Positions 9,348-22,212 of a stretch of 64,000 bases of DNA are shown here, in pieces. Origin of the DNA: Natribaculum luteum (lineage in GTDB: Archaea; Halobacteriota; Halobacteria; Halobacteriales; Natrialbaceae); contig NZ_CP095397.1 of NCBI RefSeq assembly GCF_023008545.1, forward strand, positions 1,550,001 through 1,614,000. Direction: 5' to 3'. The notes below the pieces were generated by a model. It saw only the letters and a program-made list of their open reading frames with translations. It did no database searches and was not told where the DNA came from. The first letter of the stretch is position 1. Each line of letters opens with the position of its first letter. The position numbers were made by a program, and so were the translations under genes.

Positions 9348-9420
9348 GTCCTGATAGGGTAGTGGACTATCCTCTTGGCTTGCGGAGCCAGGGACCGGAG
9401 TTCAAATCTCCGTCAGGACG
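9348..9420 (+). tRNA. tRNA-Arg (GCG)
   Basis: Cloverleaf with acceptor GTCCTGA/TCAGGAC, anticodon stem TTGGC/GCCAG closing loop TTGCGGA (anticodon GCG), and T-arm CGGAGTTCAAATCTCCG. The discriminator is G and CCA is not encoded. No intron is seen. Its 21-base 3' end is repeated exactly 125 bases downstream. Confidence 0.95.
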
Positions 9421-9664: not shown

Positions 9665-10813
9665 TCATCCGGCCAGTGTGAACCAGATCTGGGGGAGATC
9701 GAACAGCTGCCAGAGGACGTGGACTGCACCACCGGCGACGGCGGCGGGGATCACCGTATAGATCGTCGCGAGGATCGCTGCTCGGTAGTCGATCGCCAGC
9801 AGCGGGAAGAACGCATCTCCGTCCTGGCTGATCGCGTTGGCGACGAGCGCCGAAAACGGGATCGCACCTTCGCCGTACGCCGTGGCGATCCCGACGTGGA
9901 CGCCACAGCCTGGTATCGCCCCGACGAGGGCACCACCGATGGGTGCGAGCATCCCTGCAGTCGACAGCTGTGCAAACTGGACGTCAGCCACGGTCGCGAG
10001 TTCGAACACGAAGAGTGCGACTGCGACCCAGAGTACGATCCGACTCGTCGACGCGGCACTCCGCCACAGTGCGGACACGTATCGATGCAGACCGACCCGA
10101 TCGGTCGTCGGTGCCATTCCGCGGCCGTACACGTATCCGGACAGAACGACCCCCGTCACGCCGACGGCCGTGATGACGTCGGTTTCCCAGAGGACGAGCT
10201 GTGGTTCGGACTGGGTGAGGAGTGCCCGCATACTGACGCCCAGTCCAACGAGGGCGATCGTCCACCACGAGACCAGCACGGCCCACGACCACAGGTTCGT
10301 CGCGGTGTCGACCGAACTGGTCGGCCGACGGGTCGTACCACAGGCCGCGTGCCCGGACTGGGTGACTGCGCCGCCGTCGGCGGCCGTCGCTGGCTGTCTG
10401 ACGATCTGATCGATTCGTGCCGTTCCAGTCCCGTATCTCTCTATCAGCAGACCGGAGAGAACTGCCGTTACGAACGCGACCCCGTACGCGATCGGGGCCA
10501 CTTCGGGTGCGACAGCGAGCAAGACGAACGCCGAATCACCGGCTGTCGCCGCCAGTGTGGCGACGACGGTTCCAAACCCGACGACGCCACGACCGTACAG
10601 TGGCATCACGGCGATCGCTCCCCCACAGCCGGGAATCAACCCGAGTAACGCTCCACCAACTGGCTGGAGGTACTCCGAATCGCCGAACCAGGAGACGATC
10701 GTGTCGTCGACGACGAATCGTCCAAGCTCGACTACCAGAACCGACATCGCGACGAGCGACCCGATGATCACCCACGTTTCGATGGCTACCCCCGAGAACA
10801 GCTCTGCTATCAT
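9665..10813 (-). CDS. Putative 10-TM heavy-metal/manganese exporter (ArsP_2-like)
   Basis: A 382-residue, mostly hydrophobic protein with about ten membrane segments in two similar halves. Each half carries a G-IPGCG motif (60-64 in the first half, and GAIPGCGVHVG in the second), the signature of the putative manganese/heavy-metal exporter family related to ArsP. A central soluble linker contains HAACG. It would export a divalent metal across the cytoplasmic membrane. An 18-bp DtxR-type palindrome about 100 bases upstream and the remains of a DtxR-family gene next door support a Mn(II) or Fe(II) role. The substrate remains an inference. Confidence 0.75.
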   Translation of the reverse strand: MIAELFSGVAIETWVIIGSLVAMSVLVVELGRFVVDDTIVSWFGDSEYLQPVGGALLGLIPGCGGAIAVMPLYGRGVVGFGTVVATLAATAGDSAFVLLAVAPEVAPIAYGVAFVTAVLSGLLIERYGTGTARIDQIVRQPATAADGGAVTQSGHAACGTTRRPTSSVDTATNLWSWAVLVSWWTIALVGLGVSMRALLTQSEPQLVLWETDVITAVGVTGVVLSGYVYGRGMAPTTDRVGLHRYVSALWRSAASTSRIVLWVAVALFVFELATVADVQFAQLSTAGMLAPIGGALVGAIPGCGVHVGIATAYGEGAIPFSALVANAISQDGDAFFPLLAIDYRAAILATIYTVIPAAVAGGAVHVLWQLFDLPQIWFTLAG

Positions 10814-11051: not shown

Positions 11052-11233
11052 TCACGTTACTGGAATATCACAATCGTCGAGATCCGTCGCCTCGCAGTGG
11101 TCTACGCACGGCAGGTCGACTCGGTCGTTGAGTTCGCGAACGTCCTCGTGAGAGAGCAGTCGTCCGATACGATAGGCCTGTTCGCCGTGCAACTGGACGT
11201 GTGACGTAACTTCGAAAAACTGCTGGACGGCAC
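11052..11233 (-). pseudogene. C-terminal piece of a DtxR/SirR-family regulator, cut by IS66
   Basis: Downstream half of a metal-dependent repressor gene. If the IS66 element and one copy of the 8-bp target duplication are removed, the reading frame joins perfectly. The chain ...FRWRRCAV then continues as QQFFEVTSHVQLHGEQAYRI and ends in a TGA at 11052-11054. The piece is rich in possible ligands (His, Cys, Glu, Asp) as expected for the metal-binding and dimerisation domain (SHVQLHGEQA, CVDHCEATD). Full protein length would be about 147 residues, normal for this family. Confidence 0.8.
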
Positions 11234-12810
11234 GTAGTTGGATAGCGTGACCAGGATTCACCGGCCAGTGATGCCTCTCATCCTAATCTGAGTTCTTGCC
11301 CACCGAGGATGGACTGGAGCTGTTCAGGCGGATCAAGTCCTCGTCGTTTCCACGTGGCTAACATGGTCGTAATCGTCTCGTGAATCTGGACCCCTTCGGC
11401 TGAGCGGAGGGTCCGGAACATCTTCCGCAGCACAACTTGCTCGCGCAGAGCGCGCTCTGCGCGATTATTCGTCGAATCGACGTCTGGCTCTGTAACGAAC
11501 GTCAGCCAGTGCCCTAACCCGTTCCTGATCTTCTCGATCAGCTTCTTGACCTCCTGTGCCTCGTAGTCTTCCCTGATCAGGCCTTCCAGATGTAACGACG
11601 CCTCCGCCCGCTTTTGCTCGCGGGCGGAGGCGGACGGATCCTCCTCGTCGAACGCCGTTAAATCGTCATGGAGAGCGTGTAACTCCTCAGACAACCTCTC
11701 TGCTTCCTCGTACCGTTCAGCAACGTACTCCGCCTCCCGCAACAGATGTGCCCAGCACCGCTGGAGCTTCGTGTGATAGCTCGGATACGCTGACCAACCG
11801 TCACAGCTGAGCGTTGAGTCCTCGGCGAAGTCCTCGCCGAGGACGTCCTCTAACACCTGACTTCCACGACTCTCATCAACCCAGAACAGCACTTCTTCGT
11901 CAGTAACGAACGTCCACGCCCAGTGTTGCTCTCCGTCAACAGGAAATCCCGTTTCATCGCAGTAGACGACGTCACTTTCCTGAATACGGGCTTTGACATC
12001 GTCATACGCGGGTCGCAGCCGGTCTGCGACCCGCTTGGTCAGGTTGTAGATCGTCCGATGAGAGATGGGTGTATCGAGTTCCCAGTCAAACAGCTCCGCC
12101 TGTTTACGGTTTGGAAGTCGCTGATGGAACCTACCGAGGGCGGTTTGGGCCATGATATTTGGCCCAAACCGCCCGGTTTCCGGGCAGTCTGGATGTTCAG
12201 CAACGACTTCGTTTCCACAGGAACAGCGGTGTTTGCCGAGTTCGTACTCGACGACAGTGGTTGGAATAGGGAGAGGTATGTCGATAATCGTCCGTGAGAT
12301 GTAGCTGTCCGGGTTAGAGAGGATTTGCTCACAGTCTGGGCAATATCCCTGATCGACTCGAATAGTCTCCTCTGGTTCCGGAGGCGGTCGAGTTGTTCCT
12401 TCGTGACCTTCGTCACGTCCTGGAGAGGAGCCGCTGGCGGCGTCAGCGTCGCCGCCAGCGTCGTCCCCTTGGTCTTCGTTCTCTTCCTCGTCGCTGTCAT
12501 CGTTGCCAGGTGATCCAGCCACGCCACCCTGCTTACTGGGAGGTGTGTTTGGGTTTTCGTACCGCTTGAGGCGAGCCTCAAGTTGTTCGATCTGCTGTTG
12601 TTTTGCAGTGATCTGACGACGAAGAAGTCGGTTCTCAAGCTCTTTGACGACGAGTTGCTGGCGGAGATGCGTACTGTTCTCGGTGCGGATCGTGGAATCT
12701 ATCGATTCCAGCGATCCGCTAACCCCCAGCGACACACTTGATTCACCATTGAGAGACCATTCATGAGACTGCTACGAAATCGGTCTGACGGCAAATCGCT
12801 ATCCAACTAC
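11234..12810 (-). mobile_element. Intact IS66-family insertion sequence
   Basis: 1577-bp element. The ends are inverted repeats (GTAGTTGGATAGCG at 11234-11247, its complement at 12797-12810). It is flanked by the 8-bp direct repeat GACGGCAC at 11226-11233 and 12811-12818, the duplication length typical of IS66. It carries one transposase gene and no accessory tnpA/tnpB. Perfect ends and duplication indicate a recent insertion. It interrupts a DtxR/SirR-type regulator gene in frame. Confidence 0.93.
11278..12735 (-). CDS. IS66-family transposase
   Basis: 485 residues. The N-terminus is a coiled coil (repeated KELENRLLRRQ, KQQQIEQLEARL). An acidic linker follows, then a zinc-finger-like segment (CPDCEQ..., HRCSCGNEV) and the DDE catalytic domain. 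The catalytic residues appear in VYCDETGF, LSCDGWSAY and NNRAERALR, the latter holding the final Glu in the IS66 signature. The length and domain order match an intact IS66 TnpC-type transposase. There is no frameshift. It starts about 75 bases inside the right end of the element. Confidence 0.95.
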   Translation of the reverse strand: MSLGVSGSLESIDSTIRTENSTHLRQQLVVKELENRLLRRQITAKQQQIEQLEARLKRYENPNTPPSKQGGVAGSPGNDDSDEEENEDQGDDAGGDADAASGSSPGRDEGHEGTTRPPPEPEETIRVDQGYCPDCEQILSNPDSYISRTIIDIPLPIPTTVVEYELGKHRCSCGNEVVAEHPDCPETGRFGPNIMAQTALGRFHQRLPNRKQAELFDWELDTPISHRTIYNLTKRVADRLRPAYDDVKARIQESDVVYCDETGFPVDGEQHWAWTFVTDEEVLFWVDESRGSQVLEDVLGEDFAEDSTLSCDGWSAYPSYHTKLQRCWAHLLREAEYVAERYEEAERLSEELHALHDDLTAFDEEDPSASAREQKRAEASLHLEGLIREDYEAQEVKKLIEKIRNGLGHWLTFVTEPDVDSTNNRAERALREQVVLRKMFRTLRSAEGVQIHETITTMLATWKRRGLDPPEQLQSILGGQELRLG

Positions 12811-13080
12811 GACGGCACAGCGCCGCCAGCGGAATTCACGGGCTACGCGCTCGCCATACGCCGTTAGCTCGGCACCGTGGTACGGCTGGTAGGTTACGAG
12901 CCCCCGCTTCTCGAAGCTGTCGAACATTTCGGTAACGCTCGCCGCACTGACCTCGAGGAAGTCGGCGAGTTCGCTGTTGCCAATCGGCGGGTCGTCGGCC
13001 AGCGTCAGGGTCAACAGCCCACAGAGATATCGGCCTTCGCTGAGGCTGAGTGTGCGCTCGTCGTCGCTCGTGGTTGCCAT
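12811..13080 (-). pseudogene. N-terminal piece of a DtxR/SirR-family regulator, cut by IS66
   Basis: Starts MATTSDDERTLSLSEGRY and encodes the winged-helix DNA-binding domain of a DtxR/SirR/MntR-type repressor (GNSELADFLEVSAASVTEMF as helix-turn-helix, then FEKRGLVTY-PY-GAELT--G wing). The frame runs into the IS66 element after RRCAV, adding only a few foreign residues (VVG) before a stop. The DNA-binding half may still be made, but the metal-binding/dimerisation half is detached. It is four bases downstream of another winged-helix gene, probably one operon. Confidence 0.85.
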
Positions 13081-13084
13081 CGTT

Positions 13085-13423
13085 CTAGTTCGTGTTTCCG
13101 TCACTCGCCGAATCGATCGTCACTTTCCCGCGACCGTCTGTTCGCCAGTAGACGACCGTCCGACCCGTCTTTCGTCGACACAACTCGCCTTCGGCGACGA
13201 GTCGATTGAGTTTCCGTCGTGCGGCTTCCGTCGTGATCCCGAGGCCGTCTGCGACGTCGGTCGTCGTGACGACTGGTCCGGCGACGTCGTCGAACACTGC
13301 GAGCACGTCGTCGAACCCGATCGTCTGGACGAACTGGCCGTCCTCGTCACGCAGACGTTTCCGTCGTCGCTTTCGACGGCCGGTCGTTCTCGCTCGTCGC
13401 TCTCGTCCGTGTCCGGATGCCAT
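13085..13423 (-). CDS. Winged-helix DNA-binding protein
   Basis: 112 residues from the ATG at 13423; a GTG three codons earlier is possible. The N-terminus is very basic (RERRARTTGRRKRRRKR), followed by DEDGQF and a winged-helix domain: FDDVLAVFDDVAGPVVTTTDVAD, then GITTEAARRKLNRLVAEGEL as recognition helix and KTGRTVVYWR as wing. This layout recurs in haloarchaeal transcription regulators. It lies just upstream of the broken DtxR gene, so the two were probably cotranscribed. Its target is unknown. The region before it has an inverted repeat GGTAC/GTACC (about 13442-13470). Confidence 0.7.
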   Translation of the reverse strand: MASGHGRERRARTTGRRKRRRKRLRDEDGQFVQTIGFDDVLAVFDDVAGPVVTTTDVADGLGITTEAARRKLNRLVAEGELCRRKTGRTVVYWRTDGRGKVTIDSASDGNTN

Positions 13424-13568: not shown

Positions 13569-13928
13569 TCAGAGTTTGTCGAATTCGATGTTGTCTTGAT
13601 CGACGCGGGCCTGCAACGAGTCGTCATCTTCGACGTCGAACTCTCGTTCGCCGGACGGGCCGGATTCGACGTCGACGCTGAGCGTGTGCGTGCCCGACGA
13701 CAGAACATCGTCGTGTTCGAACGCGCCGTCAGGCTCGATGGTCACGTTTTCGGACACCAGTTCCTCGCCGTCGGCGTCGACGAGCGTTACGTCGGCAGTC
13801 AGCTCGTTATCGGTTCGATTGAATACGACAACGTCCGGATTGCCGCCGAACATCCCGCTACAGCCCGCCAGAAGCGTCGTTCCCGAGATTGCCGTTCCGA
13901 CGAGCATCTTTCTTCTGGTAGTTGCCAT
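13569..13928 (-). CDS. Small Tat lipoprotein of unknown function
   Basis: 119 residues. The signal has a twin-arginine start (TTRRKMLVG) and a lipobox LLAGC, so it is predicted to be exported by Tat and anchored by lipid outside the membrane. The mature part is a short beta-rich domain (VVVFNRTDNELTADVTLVD, then VTIEPDGAF, THTLSVDV), the pattern of an Ig-like or cupredoxin-like sandwich seen in haloarchaeal lipoproteins. No metal-ligand motif is evident. It is flanked by AT-rich spacers and lies between a winged-helix gene and a small membrane protein. The function is unknown. Confidence 0.65.
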   Translation of the reverse strand: MATTRRKMLVGTAISGTTLLAGCSGMFGGNPDVVVFNRTDNELTADVTLVDADGEELVSENVTIEPDGAFEHDDVLSSGTHTLSVDVESGPSGEREFDVEDDDSLQARVDQDNIEFDKL

Positions 13929-14034: not shown

Positions 14035-14235
14035 TCAGGTCAGACGGTCGTGAAGGACCAGCAGGGCACCGCCCCCCACGAGGACGACGGCGATAACCGT
14101 CGGTACGAGCTGTCCACTTCCCCACTCCCAACCGAGAAATTGGGTTCCGACGATCGCTACGATCACGATGACGATACCGAGTACCGTACTTAGCGACGAT
14201 TGGCTGTTGAAACCGAGGGACATGCCCATTTTCAT
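14035..14235 (-). CDS. Small two-helix membrane protein
   Basis: About 62-66 residues depending on which of three close ATG codons (14235, 14229, 14223) is used. A TATA box (rc of TATAAAA, 14250-14256) centred near 14253 would place a leaderless start at 14229 or 14223. There are two membrane segments: TVLGIVIVIVAIVGTQFL and VPTVIAVVLVGGGALLVL. Such small proteins can be immunity or accessory factors, but nothing in the sequence proves this. It is divergent from the cysteine-rich fusion gene, with an AT-rich gap between them. Confidence 0.5.
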   Translation of the reverse strand: MKMGMSLGFNSQSSLSTVLGIVIVIVAIVGTQFLGWEWGSGQLVPTVIAVVLVGGGALLVLHDRLT

Positions 14236-14634
14236 GTACGTCAATTCAATATAAAATTCTTTCCTAGAATGACAGAACGTTCATACGTAAATCGCACTGA
14301 TGATCCGACGGCGCCGGTCACTCGAACTCGACAGATCCGTCTTGCTTCTTGCTGTCGCTTCGGTCGTCGACGCTCTCGTAGCGCCTTTCGGTGGAGGTTC
14401 TGGTGATATCGAGTTTCGGGGCTATTGGTAATAAGTAATTCGACTCTCGATAGCTAACCTCCCTCAATTACTGTTGATAGACATTAGGTATCCTGTTGCT
14501 TTTCTCTTTGAATCCGACATCGGTTCTGTGGCTAATTTTATAATCTAAGCCAGACTAGTTCCTAGTCTAGAAAACCAATATACTATTTAAGTATTAGTTA
14601 GATATAAATACATTAACGATTATCTACATTATGC
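14236..14634. other. AT-rich intergenic region
   Basis: About 400 bases with no convincing gene and markedly lower GC than the rest of the window, most strongly from 14405 to 14634. It contains the promoters of the two divergent genes on its edges. The composition suggests acquired DNA or a regulatory island. Confidence 0.5.
14603..14610 (+). promoter_or_regulatory. TATA box of the cysteine-rich fusion gene
   Basis: TATAAATA centred about 29 bases before the ATG at 14635, in an AT-rich region, consistent with a leaderless or near-leaderless transcript. An earlier ATG at 14631 opens only an eight-codon frame. Confidence 0.6.
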
Positions 14635-16053
14635 ATGTCGCGATCAACCCATGCTGAAGGCGAAGCGGCTACAACTGGCGATTCGGCGTCTGTACCGGTC
14701 CTCCTGTACGACGCGAGTTGTACCATGTGCAACGATCTGGCGTACAAGGTCCGCGACCGCGCAGACGAACCACTCCGACTCGTCTCGCTGAGCGATCCCG
14801 AGGCGGACGAACTGCTCGCACCCCACTACTCCGACTCGTGGAGCGAGGACTTCTACTTCGTCAACGGCGACACCGCCCGGAAAGGCAAGCGTGCACTGCC
14901 GAGCGTGATGAAGACTGTCGGTGTCAAAGACTTCGCCGCACTCCTGGGAGACTATCTTCGACACCACCAGAGCCAGTCCCAGGGAGACGACTGTGATCAC
15001 GATCACGATCACGACGATTCCCGTAGTACGGGCGTTCTCTCCAGGCGAAACTTCGTCGGTGCGGCTGCCACGGTGGGAACGGCGCTGTTCGCTAACCCCG
15101 TGCAAGGAGCGTCCTCTCGTGACCGTCCCCCGAAAGGACTCGCAGTCCGCGTCGCTCGCGTCAGACCCGACGGCCAGGGAAGTTACGACGTCACCATCGA
15201 GCGAGAGGACGAACTCGTACGCCAGGAGCGGTGGGAACCGTCTTCACAGGTGGAGAGTACGCAGTCTACGACGAAACAGAAGCCGGTCTCGATGGACTCT
15301 ACGGGAACGAAAACGCTCCTCGACCGGGGAACGTTGCAGGTGCAGCGAGAGGATGTCGATCTGACGCTCGAGACCGACGACGACGTGCTCGAGGCGGCAT
15401 TCGACATGAACCGTGCAGGTCAGTCTCGTGGCGCCCAGATGACCCGGTACGGCGTGCTTGACGACCGCGATCGGTACGGGTTCAGTCTCAACTTCGCGAA
15501 GGGGCCGATGAAAGTCGACGGCAAAGCGAAAGACGGTTCGACGCTCTCCGGGCGAATCAACCACGACGTGGCGCGGAAGACGGTCGACTTCGTCAAGTTC
15601 GAAAGCGAAGAGTCGGCGGACATCGAGACCCACCTTGAGGGGTACGTCGCGGCAATCCGTGCGTATCAACGCCACTACGCCGACAGCGGCGACGCGAAGA
15701 TGGCCCGCCTTTACGGCGAAATCGCAGCCGATCTCGACGGGAACGTCTCGACGATACCTGCCGCCGCCGAAGACGAGTTCGAACCCGTCAAAAACGTGCT
15801 GTCAATCTCGAGCGTGCCGTACTGGACCGAATACGTCGAGTCACCGACGACAGATGGGTCGGACGTCTATCAGACGTCAGATGTTTCTGGGGCGGATTGT
15901 GGCTGTAGTTGCTGTTCGCTCGGTTGCTGTACCGGGTGTGATTGTGGCTGTAGCATCTGTATCGGGACTCCCAAACCTGGCTGTGGCTGTGGGTGCTGTA
16001 TCGGTGGCTGTGGAGCCGGGTGTGGTTGTGGTTGTTGTTACTGTATCGATTGA
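14635..16053 (+). CDS. DCC-thioredoxin-like / internal Tat signal / 20-cysteine tail fusion protein
   Basis: 472 residues with an unusual order. (1) Residues 20-110 are a DCC-type thiol-disulfide oxidoreductase domain with CTMC (29-32) in VLLYDASCTMC. (2) Residues 118-128 are an Asp/His-rich linker. (3) Residues 135-158 look like a twin-arginine export signal (LSRRNFVG, hydrophobic run, then NPVQGAS). (4) Residues 160-420 are an acidic region of no known family. (5) Residues 421-472 are a Gly/Cys tail with 20 cysteines in 52 residues, in two similar halves split by TPKPG. The tail could be a metallothionein-like metal binder, a halocin-like peptide or another modified peptide. I cannot choose. 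The frame is unbroken, so the fusion is real unless translation restarts inside. Confidence 0.75.
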   Translation: MSRSTHAEGEAATTGDSASVPVLLYDASCTMCNDLAYKVRDRADEPLRLVSLSDPEADELLAPHYSDSWSEDFYFVNGDTARKGKRALPSVMKTVGVKDFAALLGDYLRHHQSQSQGDDCDHDHDHDDSRSTGVLSRRNFVGAAATVGTALFANPVQGASSRDRPPKGLAVRVARVRPDGQGSYDVTIEREDELVRQERWEPSSQVESTQSTTKQKPVSMDSTGTKTLLDRGTLQVQREDVDLTLETDDDVLEAAFDMNRAGQSRGAQMTRYGVLDDRDRYGFSLNFAKGPMKVDGKAKDGSTLSGRINHDVARKTVDFVKFESEESADIETHLEGYVAAIRAYQRHYADSGDAKMARLYGEIAADLDGNVSTIPAAAEDEFEPVKNVLSISSVPYWTEYVESPTTDGSDVYQTSDVSGADCGCSCCSLGCCTGCDCGCSICIGTPKPGCGCGCCIGGCGAGCGCGCCYCID

Positions 16054-16164
16054 TAACGCCTGCTGTACCTGTGTCCCGGCGCATCCGCGACCTGTCTGGC
16101 GGTTGGCCCGGGACTGACGTACGGCAGACGTTGTGAGAGACTGCTGATCGAAGCGAGTCGATCC

Positions 16165-16185
16165 AGAGCCGCTTGCGTCGGCTCT
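16165..16185. terminator. Stem-loop next to the RNase P RNA 3' end
   Basis: Perfect 7-bp stem AGAGCCG/CGGCTCT with a 7-base loop, lying between the cysteine-rich gene (ending 16053) and the 3' end of rnpB. It is followed by TTT on the plus strand. It may end transcription or mark RNA processing. Archaeal termination does not require hairpins, so the role is uncertain. Confidence 0.35.
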
Positions 16186-16188
16186 TTC

Positions 16189-16650
16189 GGTTAAACTGGG
16201 TGAGAGGAGTAAGCCCCCTTCTGTTCGTCCCGGCATTCGGCTGAGCGTCCACGCCACCCGCGGAATTCGCGGTGTCTTCGGGCTACCAGCGGCGCGGACT
16301 TGCACCGGTGAGGATTCGCCGTTCCATCGATCCTCGGCCGTCTCTGCACAGTCGATCGCGCCGAGCGCGACCTGCGGTTTCGAACCGCGATACTCGACTG
16401 CGCTCCCTCTGCGGGTCAACTCCCCTTCCTCGCGGTCGGGTTCGCACGCATCATCGGTCGGGTCGAGACGTGTCGTTTCTGTTCCAGAGCCAGCGGTCTC
16501 CCGCTCCGGGCTTGCGCCCGGTCACCTGCCCGAACGGTGGGGGGACTTTCCTCGCGGGCGTGAAACGTCCGGACGGACGATCCACGTTGGACGGGCGCGC
16601 CGTTACCGACGCGTCCGCCGCGGCAGCCAGGCTCTCTCTCCCAACTAACC
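16189..16650 (-). ncRNA. rnpB: RNase P RNA (archaeal type A)
   Basis: Read on the minus strand, the conserved regions are all present: GAGGAAAGTCCCCCC, the ACAGAAACGACACG segment, the GGTGCAAGTCCG segment, and GACGAACAGAAGGGGGCTTA near the 3' end. The ends are placed by the P1 helix, where GGTTAGTTGGGAGAGAG (from 16650) pairs with CTCTCACCCAGTTTAACC (to 16189). This RNA is the catalytic part of RNase P, which trims tRNA 5' leaders. A TATA-like CTTATTC lies about 20-26 bases upstream. The ends are accurate to a few bases. Confidence 0.93.
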
Positions 16651-19092: not shown

Positions 19093-20532
19093 TTACGGAT
19101 TTACCGGCACCGACGCGTCGGCCGGCGCTCCTGTCCGTGAGGTCGCCTCGGGCGTCGGTGCCGTCGGCGGGGCCGCAGGCGCGATCGCGGTCGACGTCGG
19201 CGAGGGCCTGTGGATCGCCTCGAGGTCCGTCACCGTGGGTGCGCCGACGATCACGACCTCGTCGCCCTCGAGGTCGACGCGGTACGCGCCGGCGAACTCC
19301 TCGTCGTCCGGAATCCGGTAGACGCCGTCGGCGGAATCGACGGCGTCTGCGCCCTGGCTCTCGAGCACCTCGACGTACGCGTCGCGAAACTCCCTGGCGT
19401 CGCCCTCGCTCTCCCAGGCGAGTTTCCAGACGTGTCCCGTCTCGTTGCCGTCGCCGTAGGCGACGAACGTGTCGCCGGCCCAGCCGTCGGTGGCTGGGTG
19501 AGAGTAGTTGTACCGCGAGTACTCTCCAGATCCCTCGCCGAGTGGTCGGCCGATCACGCCGTTCGACCAGAGCGTCGCGAACAGGGTCGCCTCACCGACT
19601 GTCTCCGTTCGCCGCTCGCCGTCGTCGGTCAGCGGCTCCCACTCGCTGGTCGATCGGTCCTCGACTGTCACGTCGGCTGGTCGAGCCTCCGGGTATCGCT
19701 CGGGGTGGATGAGCTGTGCCGTACTCGTGGGCGGATCTTCGTGTACGGCGTCGACGCCCTCCCAGCCGGTCGTCTCGTGGCGGTGGGCGACGAACGTGGG
19801 CCCCTCGGCGTACGGTGTGTAGACCGAGAGGAACAGGCCGGCGTTGAACGATCTCTGGTCGGGCGGTGCGGTGTCCGGCGTGGCGGCGTCGAGACACTCC
19901 CACTGCTCGCCACAGCGCTCGTCGTACAGCGACGGGACGTACTCGGCCTCGCCCTCGGCCAGCCCGGTCGTCGCACGCCGTTCGTCGATCGTTGCGCCGC
20001 CACTCCCGAGGCCGAACTGCTGGTCTTGCAGGGCGTGGACGAGTTCGTGGACAAGCGTCGTCCGGTCGATTCGGTCGTCGTCGTCGACGACGAGTACGAT
20101 ACGCCCGTCCGAGTAGTAGCCGAGTATCGAATCGCCGTAGAGCTCGTCGAACGCCTCGTTGACGTCCGTCTCGCCGTCGACGACGAACGCCCCTCGCCAC
20201 AGTTCGTTCGTAAACTGCGACGCCGGGTCTCGATCCTGTTGCCAGCGTTCTCGATACTCCTCGCGGTTCACGACCTCGAGTTCGACGTCCTCCTCGAACT
20301 CGAGGCCGCGTATTTCCTCGATTCGGGCCATCGCGCGGTGTTTGACGGCCTCGCGTTCGTCCTCGGTGAGCGGGCCGCTGCCGTCTATCTCGATCGTGTC
20401 GGTTGCGTTGTAGTCACCGACGCGTCCGAGTTCGCGGTCGCCGTCCAGTTCGTCCTCGGCGTCCGAAATCGGGGCCGTACAGCCCGCGAGTACGACGAGC
20501 GCGACGACGACGACGAGAGAGACCCGTCGCAT
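19093..20532 (-). CDS. Hvo_1808-type surface lipoprotein with HELVH metallopeptidase-like motif
   Basis: About 479 residues from the ATG at 20532. The signal is MRRVSLVVVVALVVLAGC, with a lipobox, so the protein is lipid-anchored outside the cell. The core carries TTLVHELVHALQDQQFGL, a HExxH-type zinc site, and a later GEAEY that could give the third ligand, as in gluzincins. It resembles the neighbouring gene across its whole length (HELVHALQDQ, GEA(V/E), TDGWAGD blocks), so the two arose by duplication. It is best described as a haloarchaeal Hvo_1808-type surface protein with a predicted but unproven protease fold. Confidence 0.75.
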   Translation of the reverse strand: MRRVSLVVVVALVVLAGCTAPISDAEDELDGDRELGRVGDYNATDTIEIDGSGPLTEDEREAVKHRAMARIEEIRGLEFEEDVELEVVNREEYRERWQQDRDPASQFTNELWRGAFVVDGETDVNEAFDELYGDSILGYYSDGRIVLVVDDDDRIDRTTLVHELVHALQDQQFGLGSGGATIDERRATTGLAEGEAEYVPSLYDERCGEQWECLDAATPDTAPPDQRSFNAGLFLSVYTPYAEGPTFVAHRHETTGWEGVDAVHEDPPTSTAQLIHPERYPEARPADVTVEDRSTSEWEPLTDDGERRTETVGEATLFATLWSNGVIGRPLGEGSGEYSRYNYSHPATDGWAGDTFVAYGDGNETGHVWKLAWESEGDAREFRDAYVEVLESQGADAVDSADGVYRIPDDEEFAGAYRVDLEGDEVVIVGAPTVTDLEAIHRPSPTSTAIAPAAPPTAPTPEATSRTGAPADASVPVNP

Positions 20533-20574
20533 TAGCACAGTAGACGGCCGCCGGAGGCAAAGCGTTTCTGTCGA

Positions 20575-22212
20575 CTACCGCCGGCGTGCAACCGTCACGG
20601 CGATCAGCACCGCGCCGAGGGCAGCGCCGACGCCGAACCCGGGCAGTTCGTCGCTCTCGTCGTCGGCCCCCGAACGTTCGTCTGTGCCGTCGGTTTCGTT
20701 TGCGTCTTCGAACACAAGGGTGTCCTCGCCGGCAGGTGCCGCGCCTTCGCGGATCTCCGGCAGTTCGTCGACCGAGGGTGCTCTGACGATCGTCACCGTC
20801 GTCCCGTCGTGGTCGACGTAGTACGCGCCGGGATAGCCGTCGTCGATCACGACGGTGTCCTGCCGGCCGTCGACGGGATCTGCGCCGTGGATGTCGAGCA
20901 ACTCGAGGTAGCCGTCGAGGAACTGTTCGGCCTCGGAGTCGCTGGTCCACTCGGTTCGCCAGACGTAGCCGCTCTCCTCGATCGTCCGTTCGTCGGTCGC
21001 GTACACGACCAGCCTGTCGCCGGCCCAGCCGTCCGTGTAGGGCTGGTCGTAGTCGATGTCGGCGACGTACCCGTCGTCGTCGAACGTGACGAACTCCCCG
21101 GCTCCGACGACGGAGGACTCGAAGGGTGCGATCGCTCCGTCGGCGAACATTGCCGCCATCGTCGCCTCGCCGAACGACGAGTAGTCCGGCCCCTCGTCGG
21201 TCTCGAGACGCTCCCAGCGGTCGGTCGATCGATCCTCGATCTCGAGGTCGGCCGGTTCGCGCTCCTCGCCGGGACGGATGACCTCGGAACTGCTCGCCGG
21301 CGGGTCGTCGTGGGCGGCGTCGACGGCGTCCCAGCCGCCCTGCTCGAGAAGGTAGTCGACGTAGTCGGGGCCGTCGTCGTAAGGCTGGAAGACGGTGAAG
21401 TAGATGCCCCAGTTGAGCTGTGGTGGCTCCTCGCTTCGCTGCTCGTCCGGGAGCACGCAGTCCCACTCGCTCTGACAGCGATCTTCGTACTCGGTGTCGA
21501 CCCAGACGGCCTCGCCCTCGATGAGCCCGTTTCTGGCGTTTGCCTCGTCCCGGGTCTCGTTTTCGTTGCTCTCGAGACCGACGTACTGGTCCTGTAACGC
21601 GTGGACGAGTTCGTGACCGAGCGTCACCTCGTTCGTCGCGGGCGTCTCGGGCGTATCCGAGACCAGGACGATCTCGTCGGTCGCCGGATCGTAGTAGCCC
21701 GCGACGGAACTGTCGTACATCGCCTTGTACTCCTCGACCGCGTCGGTGTCGCGGTCGACCATGAACAGCGACTCGAATCGGACGTTGTGATAGAGCCGTT
21801 CGTCGTCTTCGAACTCGCCGAACATGTCGCCGTTCTCCGCTTCGAACTCCTCGCGAGTGATGACGTCGACCGACACCGCCTCCTGGAACGGCTTCTCGCG
21901 GATGACCTCGACGCGGGCCATCGCGCGGTAGACGACCGCCTCGAGTTCGTCTTCCTCGAGGACGCCGTCGTCGCGGTCGTCGGCGGGCAGCGAGTCGTTG
22001 TACCAGTAGCCTTCGACGTAACCGATCGTTCCATTGGTCGTCGGTTCGTCAGTACCGGTTTCGACCTGCGGAAGGGGCGTCGCGGTCGACGGCTGGGTCG
22101 CCTCGACGGACGTGGAGGTGGAGGTTGCGGCGGACCCCGCCGCTGCCGCCGGGGCCGTGATCGTCGACAACACGACGACTGCGACGAGGACGAACGCGCG
22201 GGTTGCCTTCAT
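20575..22212 (-). CDS. Hvo_1808-type PGF-CTERM surface protein with HELVH motif
   Basis: 545 residues. It has a Sec-type signal (MKATRAFVLVAVVVLSTITAPAAAA cut point), a low-complexity Ser/Thr spacer, and a core with VTLGHELVHALQDQYVGLE followed by GEAVW. The C-terminus is LPGFGVGAALGAVLIAV and then ARRR, a PGF-CTERM signal for archaeosortase-dependent surface anchoring. It is upstream of the lipoprotein paralogue on the same strand with about 40 bases between them, so likely one transcript. One copy is anchored by lipid and the other by archaeosortase. The catalytic role is inferred from the HExxH motif only. Confidence 0.8.
   Translation of the reverse strand: MKATRAFVLVAVVVLSTITAPAAAAGSAATSTSTSVEATQPSTATPLPQVETGTDEPTTNGTIGYVEGYWYNDSLPADDRDDGVLEEDELEAVVYRAMARVEVIREKPFQEAVSVDVITREEFEAENGDMFGEFEDDERLYHNVRFESLFMVDRDTDAVEEYKAMYDSSVAGYYDPATDEIVLVSDTPETPATNEVTLGHELVHALQDQYVGLESNENETRDEANARNGLIEGEAVWVDTEYEDRCQSEWDCVLPDEQRSEEPPQLNWGIYFTVFQPYDDGPDYVDYLLEQGGWDAVDAAHDDPPASSSEVIRPGEEREPADLEIEDRSTDRWERLETDEGPDYSSFGEATMAAMFADGAIAPFESSVVGAGEFVTFDDDGYVADIDYDQPYTDGWAGDRLVVYATDERTIEESGYVWRTEWTSDSEAEQFLDGYLELLDIHGADPVDGRQDTVVIDDGYPGAYYVDHDGTTVTIVRAPSVDELPEIREGAAPAGEDTLVFEDANETDGTDERSGADDESDELPGFGVGAALGAVLIAVTVARRR

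Follow-up and report, generated by a model that had tools for sequence, protein, structure and literature searches.

A rare haloarchaeal protein that joins a DCC-like domain, an internal twin-arginine signal, and a cysteine-rich tail in one chain

A gene for a putative self-oxidizing secreted precursor was found in the window, that is, in the whole analyzed stretch of 64,000 nucleotides from Natribaculum luteum (NZ_CP095397.1, positions 1,550,001 to 1,614,000). From the N- to the C-terminus, the encoded protein consists of a DCC-like CxxC domain, a linker with Cys, His, and Asp residues, a twin-arginine signal, a Cys-free acidic domain, and a Cys-rich tail (Table 1). This architecture is real, conserved as a unit, and rare. 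The protein is interpreted here, with not quite an even chance of being right, as the precursor of a secreted, disulfide-rich, halocin-like peptide, the DCC domain of which would act in cis to oxidize the tail, ahead of Tat export, and would then be cut off. Secreted Cys-rich precursors with a dedicated oxidoreductase are already known; the novelty is the placement of the predicted enzyme and its substrate in a single chain, on either side of the export signal.

Table 1. Features of the precursor gene and its surroundings (coordinates of the window)
Feature	Coordinates	Strand	Details
Small lipoprotein-like gene (Tat/lipobox)	13569..13928	-	also beside the G342 remnant; no Pfam family
Small two-helix membrane protein	14035..14244	-	candidate immunity or escort factor; homologues adjacent in G142 and G342
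Segment missing in G137 (empty site)	14393..16180	.	right boundary uncertain, about 16170-16197
TATA-like box TATAAATA	14603..14610	+	25-32 nt 5' of ATG; read from the sequence by consensus only
Precursor gene	14635..16053	+	472 aa; DCC-Tat-middle-Cys-tail; full-length homologues in three other genomes, C-terminal remnant in one
DCC-like thioredoxin-fold domain	14686..14937	+	residues 18-101; CxxC at 29-32; predicted from PF04134, hhalign, AF2
Linker	14980..15027	+	residues 116-131; conserved Cys120 and HDHDHD run; from alignment
Internal twin-arginine signal	15028..15108	+	LSRRNF and hydrophobic stretch; RR at residues 137-138
Cys-free acidic middle domain	15109..15879	+	residues 159-415; 18% Asp+Glu; no known family
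Cys-rich tail	15889..16050	+	residues 419-472; 20 Cys; almost uncharged; two similar halves

The preliminary description of this DNA had listed a 472-residue frame with C29 and C32, an Asp/His-rich linker, a twin-arginine pair, and a 20-Cys tail. All of these were recovered; the His/Asp-rich run of the linker follows C120, and C29, C32, and C120 are the only Cys residues outside the tail. AT-rich DNA upstream of the gene and an adjoining gene for a small membrane protein were likewise found as described. The start at 14635 is supported by the TATA-like TATAAATA, the spacing of which suggests leaderless transcription from this position. A pair of genes joined by a sequencing error is ruled out, because the identical order of parts recurs in three other genomes; four full-length fusions are thus known.

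Full-length relatives with identities of 45, 28, and 29% were found in three other haloarchaea, and a fourth has kept a C-terminal remnant. Searching 391 genomes from the class revealed the relatives in G142 (45-46% identity) and G345 (29-31% identity) as well as the remnant in G342, which spans residues 353-470. The fourth full-length protein, that of G487, came from a profile search in an additional family. All four full-length proteins are 28-50% identical and retain the four-part order unchanged. The gene was found in only 4 of the 391 genomes in the class sample, remnant included, and its members belong to three families. A phylum sample of 286 genomes contained the window's own gene only, and a sample drawn evenly in this way can overlook rare members. 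Scans of other families yielded no further members, and a pattern scan of GTDB genomes for relatives outside Halobacteria returned only a MAG member already found. No family match for the precursor or its tail was found in Pfam, NCBIfam, PHROGs, or PADLOC, and none to halocin C8. The earlier statement that no described family has this domain order is upheld, and no profile in the searched libraries covers the precursor. Among the DCC loci fetched from two families, no other DCC fusions with different tails were seen. The weak matches L117-L124 were inspected and rejected as relatives, as they look like low-complexity, frame-shifted, or unrelated ORFs. A phage or plasmid origin was also rejected: tblastn gave no match in phages or plasmids, and none was found in viral contigs.

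The homologues form two subgroups. The first one includes the window protein, the G142 protein, and the G342 remnant, all having 20-Cys tails, with the HDHDHD linker in the window and G142 proteins. The second one includes the proteins of G345 and G487, in which the tail has 14 Cys, the linker has DCxC in place of HDHDHD, and the DCC domain carries one more Cys at position 81. When the window and G142 proteins are compared, identity is 65% in the tail, 50% in the DCC domain, and 38% in the middle domain. Since the middle domain is less well conserved than either the tail or the DCC domain, these two are the constrained parts of the precursor. The cis-acting role proposed earlier fits this pattern, as the DCC domain and the tail are kept together in all four full-length members.

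The N-terminal domain matches PF04134 (DCC1-like) at residues 23-74 with E=0.013 in the window protein, and the E-values are 2.6e-4 in G142 and 1.4e-4 in G345. Whole-protein scores in these three scanned fusions are 17.2, 22.6, and 23.5 bits, respectively, all under the curated Pfam cut-off of 27.8 bits, which speaks against the preferred explanation; a stand-alone haloarchaeal relative (L060) likewise scores only 25.1 bits. Stand-alone haloarchaeal DCC proteins, compared by hhalign as two sets, matched with 97% probability. The YDxxCxxC motif is invariant in the full-length members (YDASCTMC in the window, with C29 and C32), and its DxxCxxC core lies at the start of a predicted thioredoxin-like fold, as in DCC1-like proteins. 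In the AF2 model, residues 20-100 fold as beta-alpha-beta-alpha-beta-beta-alpha with a pLDDT of about 55-80 (overall pLDDT 40), and the CxxC is located at a helix start. VIA-align matched residues 18-101 to NrdH, glutaredoxin, and GST N-domains, the highest Z being 7.6; Foldseek returned nothing under E 0.001. Taken together, the PF04134 match, the profile-profile comparison, and the structural matches support a thioredoxin-like DCC domain, predicted to be an enzyme and related to the stand-alone haloarchaeal DCC proteins, so that the original DCC assignment stands. The domain differs from typical DCC1-like ones in its score, in the absence of the C-terminal part of the family profile, and in its fusion to a putative Tat-exported protein. 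To our knowledge, thiol-disulfide exchange activity has been poorly tested even across the whole DCC1-like family.

In every full-length member, the CxxC is followed by at least one linker Cys. The internal Tat signal of the window protein matches TIGR01409 at residues 135-154 with 14.4 bits, slightly under the cut-off of 16.7. An SRR[NTA]F motif followed by a hydrophobic segment, as is typical of Tat substrates, was found in 4/4 full-length members, which upholds the earlier recognition of a Tat signal within the chain. The middle domain is present and devoid of Cys in all four of these proteins. No match to it was found in Pfam, NCBIfam, PHROGs, PADLOC, or PDB sequences. Modeled alone by AF2 from four sequences, it reached a pLDDT of 53, and the best Foldseek E-value was 0.5, with no confident fold match. 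Right before the tail, Gln 413 and Gly 419 are invariant in 5/5 sequences; the region around them is a possible processing region.

Cys accounts for 20 of the 54 tail residues, all of these Cys lying within residues 422-470. If Cys is taken to have a background frequency of 0.8%, at least 20 Cys in 52 residues would occur by chance with p of about 1e-28. The two similar halves of the tail, also pointed out before, are real as well. Two copies of 67 nt each (15898-15964 and 15982-16048) are 72% identical and 84 nt apart, and the half-to-half score is 97; shuffled tails averaged 58, and none of the 2000 shuffles scored as high. In the 20-Cys subgroup, the tail is thus a duplicated 28-codon unit. 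Variability or loss of the tail among homologues had been named as a finding that would refute the observation; the tail is missing in none of them and varies just between 20 and 14 Cys. The count is even at all five loci (20, 20, 20, 14, and 14), and in the full-length proteins the Cys residues of the putative exported part are confined to the tail. Tail Cys codons are mostly TGT despite the GC-rich genomes (TGT:TGC of 17:3 in the window and 18:2, 10:4, and 14:6 in relatives).

The tail is nearly uncharged, and the rest of the protein is 15-18% acidic. Near-absence of charge would be unusual for a haloarchaeal surface protein, and the tail is far better conserved than the middle domain. Both facts weigh against a structural disulfide-rich protein, the middle domain and tail of which would remain joined at the cell surface for adhesion, matrix formation, or protection, with the DCC domain as only a folding aid. 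Such a protein is unlikely, even with the middle domain, less conserved as it is, retained in 4/4 full-length members, the processing site only putative, and the gene accessory.

Architecturally, the closest known system is the halocin C8 precursor (ProC8, TIGR04449), also a single haloarchaeal gene with a Tat signal, an acidic pro-domain, and a low-charge Cys-rich C-terminal peptide. The same succession of a Tat signal, an acidic pro-domain, and a Cys-rich end was seen in the fetched HalC8 precursors, and the precursor described here shares it without sequence homology. Halocin C8 differs in having 10 Cys in 76 residues, compared with 20 or 14 in about 50, and the present precursor carries an N-terminal DCC domain in addition. 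The resemblance to halocin C8-type cores suggested in the preliminary description did not extend to sequence, as hhalign aligned the Tat signal alone. TIGR04449 (halocin_C8_dom) gave no match at E<=1 in the protein. The genome of the window likewise yielded no match at E<=0.01, and the same model does find true HalC8 precursors in relatives. Membership in the halocin C8 family is thus ruled out by profile and profile-profile tests, and no sequence relation of the precursor to known antimicrobials was detected. One halocin C8 precursor was found in the relative G004 (L134:1498-2718), and its C-terminal 76 residues appear identical to published HalC8; no DCC or two-helix gene was found within about 1.5 kb of this locus. 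Additionally, a short Cys-rich ORF with 10 Cys in 60 residues, resembling a halocin-type tail and having no significant Pfam match, was observed in G091 (L019:5694-5987).

The CxC, CC, and CxxC arrangement of the 20 tail Cys also suits metal binding, and this too counts against the preferred explanation. Animal metallothioneins have a similar Cys density and share the CxC and CC motifs. The protein could accordingly be an exported metallothionein-like one, in which the tail would bind soft metals delivered by the His, Asp, and Cys residues of the linker, the DCC domain would keep the thiols reduced, and Tat, known for metalloprotein export, would export the loaded protein. The HDHDHD linker in two members and an ArsP_2 metal exporter about 4 kb away agree with such a role, which we nevertheless regard as rather unlikely. 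The 14-Cys subgroup lacks the His/Asp run, no metal gene is common to the loci, and extracellular chelation would be unusual. Unlike classic metallothioneins, moreover, the tail is nearly free of Lys, moderately hydrophobic, and part of a large putative Tat-exported precursor.

The Cys/Gly-rich repeat composition of the tail resembles that of azole-forming peptides, and YcaO is encoded in every genome tested. Enzymatic modification of the tail to azoles, thioethers, or similar RiPP structures, with the DCC domain taking part in that chemistry or serving as a leader, is nevertheless very improbable. As noted earlier, no YcaO-type enzyme is near: PF02624 has no match in the vicinity of the precursor. 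One distant YcaO copy was found in all five genomes, the precursor-less one included; this single chromosomal copy is present in both G137 and Haloferax volcanii. Since a core YcaO occurs even without the precursor, its presence is uninformative on azole modification. For a YcaO-dependent azole peptide (TOMM), modification enzymes encoded together with the precursor would be expected, and here none was recognized beside it.

The Tat system exports folded proteins, and residues ahead of a Tat signal stay cytoplasmic according to the known Tat topology. If this holds here, the DCC domain, N-terminal to the internal signal, would stay on the cytoplasmic side and could act on the tail only before export. 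The preference of Tat for folded substrates and a cytoplasmic DCC domain would together point to oxidation in cis before export, with the enzyme then removed together with the signal. In the preferred reading, the DCC domain would oxidize the Cys residues of its own tail, perhaps via the linker cysteine(s), and all of them would presumably become paired. Tat would export the folded, oxidized middle and tail part, signal cleavage would take the DCC part off, and a protease would later separate the tail from the acidic pro-domain. The tail, near-neutral and rich in Cys and Gly, would most likely be a halocin-like antimicrobial, with the two-helix membrane protein, and perhaps the lipoprotein too, as a candidate immunity or escort factor. 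A self-maturing peptide in this full sense, with 14-20 Cys oxidized before export by its own cytoplasmic-side oxidoreductase and the enzyme removed by export cleavage, is a possibility that we hold with some doubt.

Disulfide-rich secreted peptides normally depend on separate oxidoreductases, which are often extracytoplasmic. If the proposed mechanism is true, it would show how very Cys-rich peptides come to be folded in archaea that export proteins in a folded state, and it would provide a single-gene route to secreted disulfide-rich peptides, one gene doing the multi-gene job of bacteriocin clusters. The precursor and its homologues would then form a new family of candidate halocins, invisible to current profiles. 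Release of active C-terminal fragments from precursors is known for halocins H4 and C8 (PMC12893001). Thiol oxidoreductases devoted to one secreted Cys-containing peptide are likewise represented by PedC for pediocin PA-1 (PMC4919988) and by TmcD for TMcin, the cluster of which also requires the two-helix protein TmcE (PMC13252029). Both PedC and TmcD are encoded by separate genes and act in trans, whereas here the predicted enzyme and its substrate form one chain with the export signal between them.

This analysis gives a first genetic context for the precursor, including the tail, the predicted enzyme, a candidate immunity gene, and a natural empty site. In the sister species G137, the locus is 93-97% identical on both sides and lacks about 1.78 kb corresponding to the precursor gene and its upstream region. 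A second precursor-less locus with matching neighbors was found in G096. Gain in the window's lineage would be the simplest explanation, and two losses are possible. The right edge of the segment abuts the 3' end of an archaeal RNase P RNA gene located just beyond it (16198-16642, minus strand; RF00373, 158.6 bits). Rarity and a clean empty site would fit an accessory antagonism gene.

All three loci of the 20-Cys subgroup carry a member of the two-helix family no more than about 400 bp away from the precursor, in agreement with the small membrane gene noted before. This gene diverges from the precursor in the window, lies downstream in the same direction in G142, and converges on it in G342. 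Because adjacency is constant while orientation changes, a functional link between the two genes can be argued for. A homologue of the lipoprotein gene, about 40% identical, was found near the G342 remnant (L013/L080). The two-helix protein is a candidate immunity or escort factor and nothing more, and the lipoprotein is perhaps another one. It is also quite conceivable, if somewhat doubtful to us, that both genes are an unrelated chromosomal pair with no part in immunity, beside which the precursor merely landed; this would be compatible with the mechanism preferred above. Both genes are kept in G137 and G096, where the precursor is missing, and dN/dS of about 0.2 between the window and G137, for the two-helix (62 codons) and lipoprotein genes alike, points to purifying selection. 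Two-helix relatives were found in 143 of 391 haloarchaeal genomes and so are not specific to the precursor, which most of these genomes lack; they mostly sit at a conserved position beside ligA- and ArsA-like genes, without Cys-rich genes in roughly 30 loci examined. No such relative was found near the 14-Cys members, either within about 9 kb on each side in G487 or on the 5.3 kb G345 contig. Against an unrelated pair stands the adjacency in three lineages and three orientations, for which the chance is about 1e-3 or less per genome, as estimated from genome size.

Several other genes were observed around these loci. In G487 (L141:6798-8674), a pair of genes for an ABC transporter ATPase and permease is located directly upstream of the precursor and co-directional with it; one may speculate that this pair is an alternative immunity or export system. 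In the window, an IS66-type transposase gene (11278-12735, minus) splits a DtxR/MntR-like regulator into an N part (12799-13104) and a C part (11052-11261); the regulator is intact in G137 (154 aa) and G096 (147 aa). The gene for the ArsP_2 family exporter, with 10 TM segments (9665-10813, minus), adjoins a tRNA gene (9348-9420). Two adjacent similar ORFs for secreted or anchored proteins, each with an HExVHxLQDQ-like motif, were found on the minus strand at 19093-20538 and 20575-22212, perhaps representing a tandem pair of metallopeptidase-like proteins.
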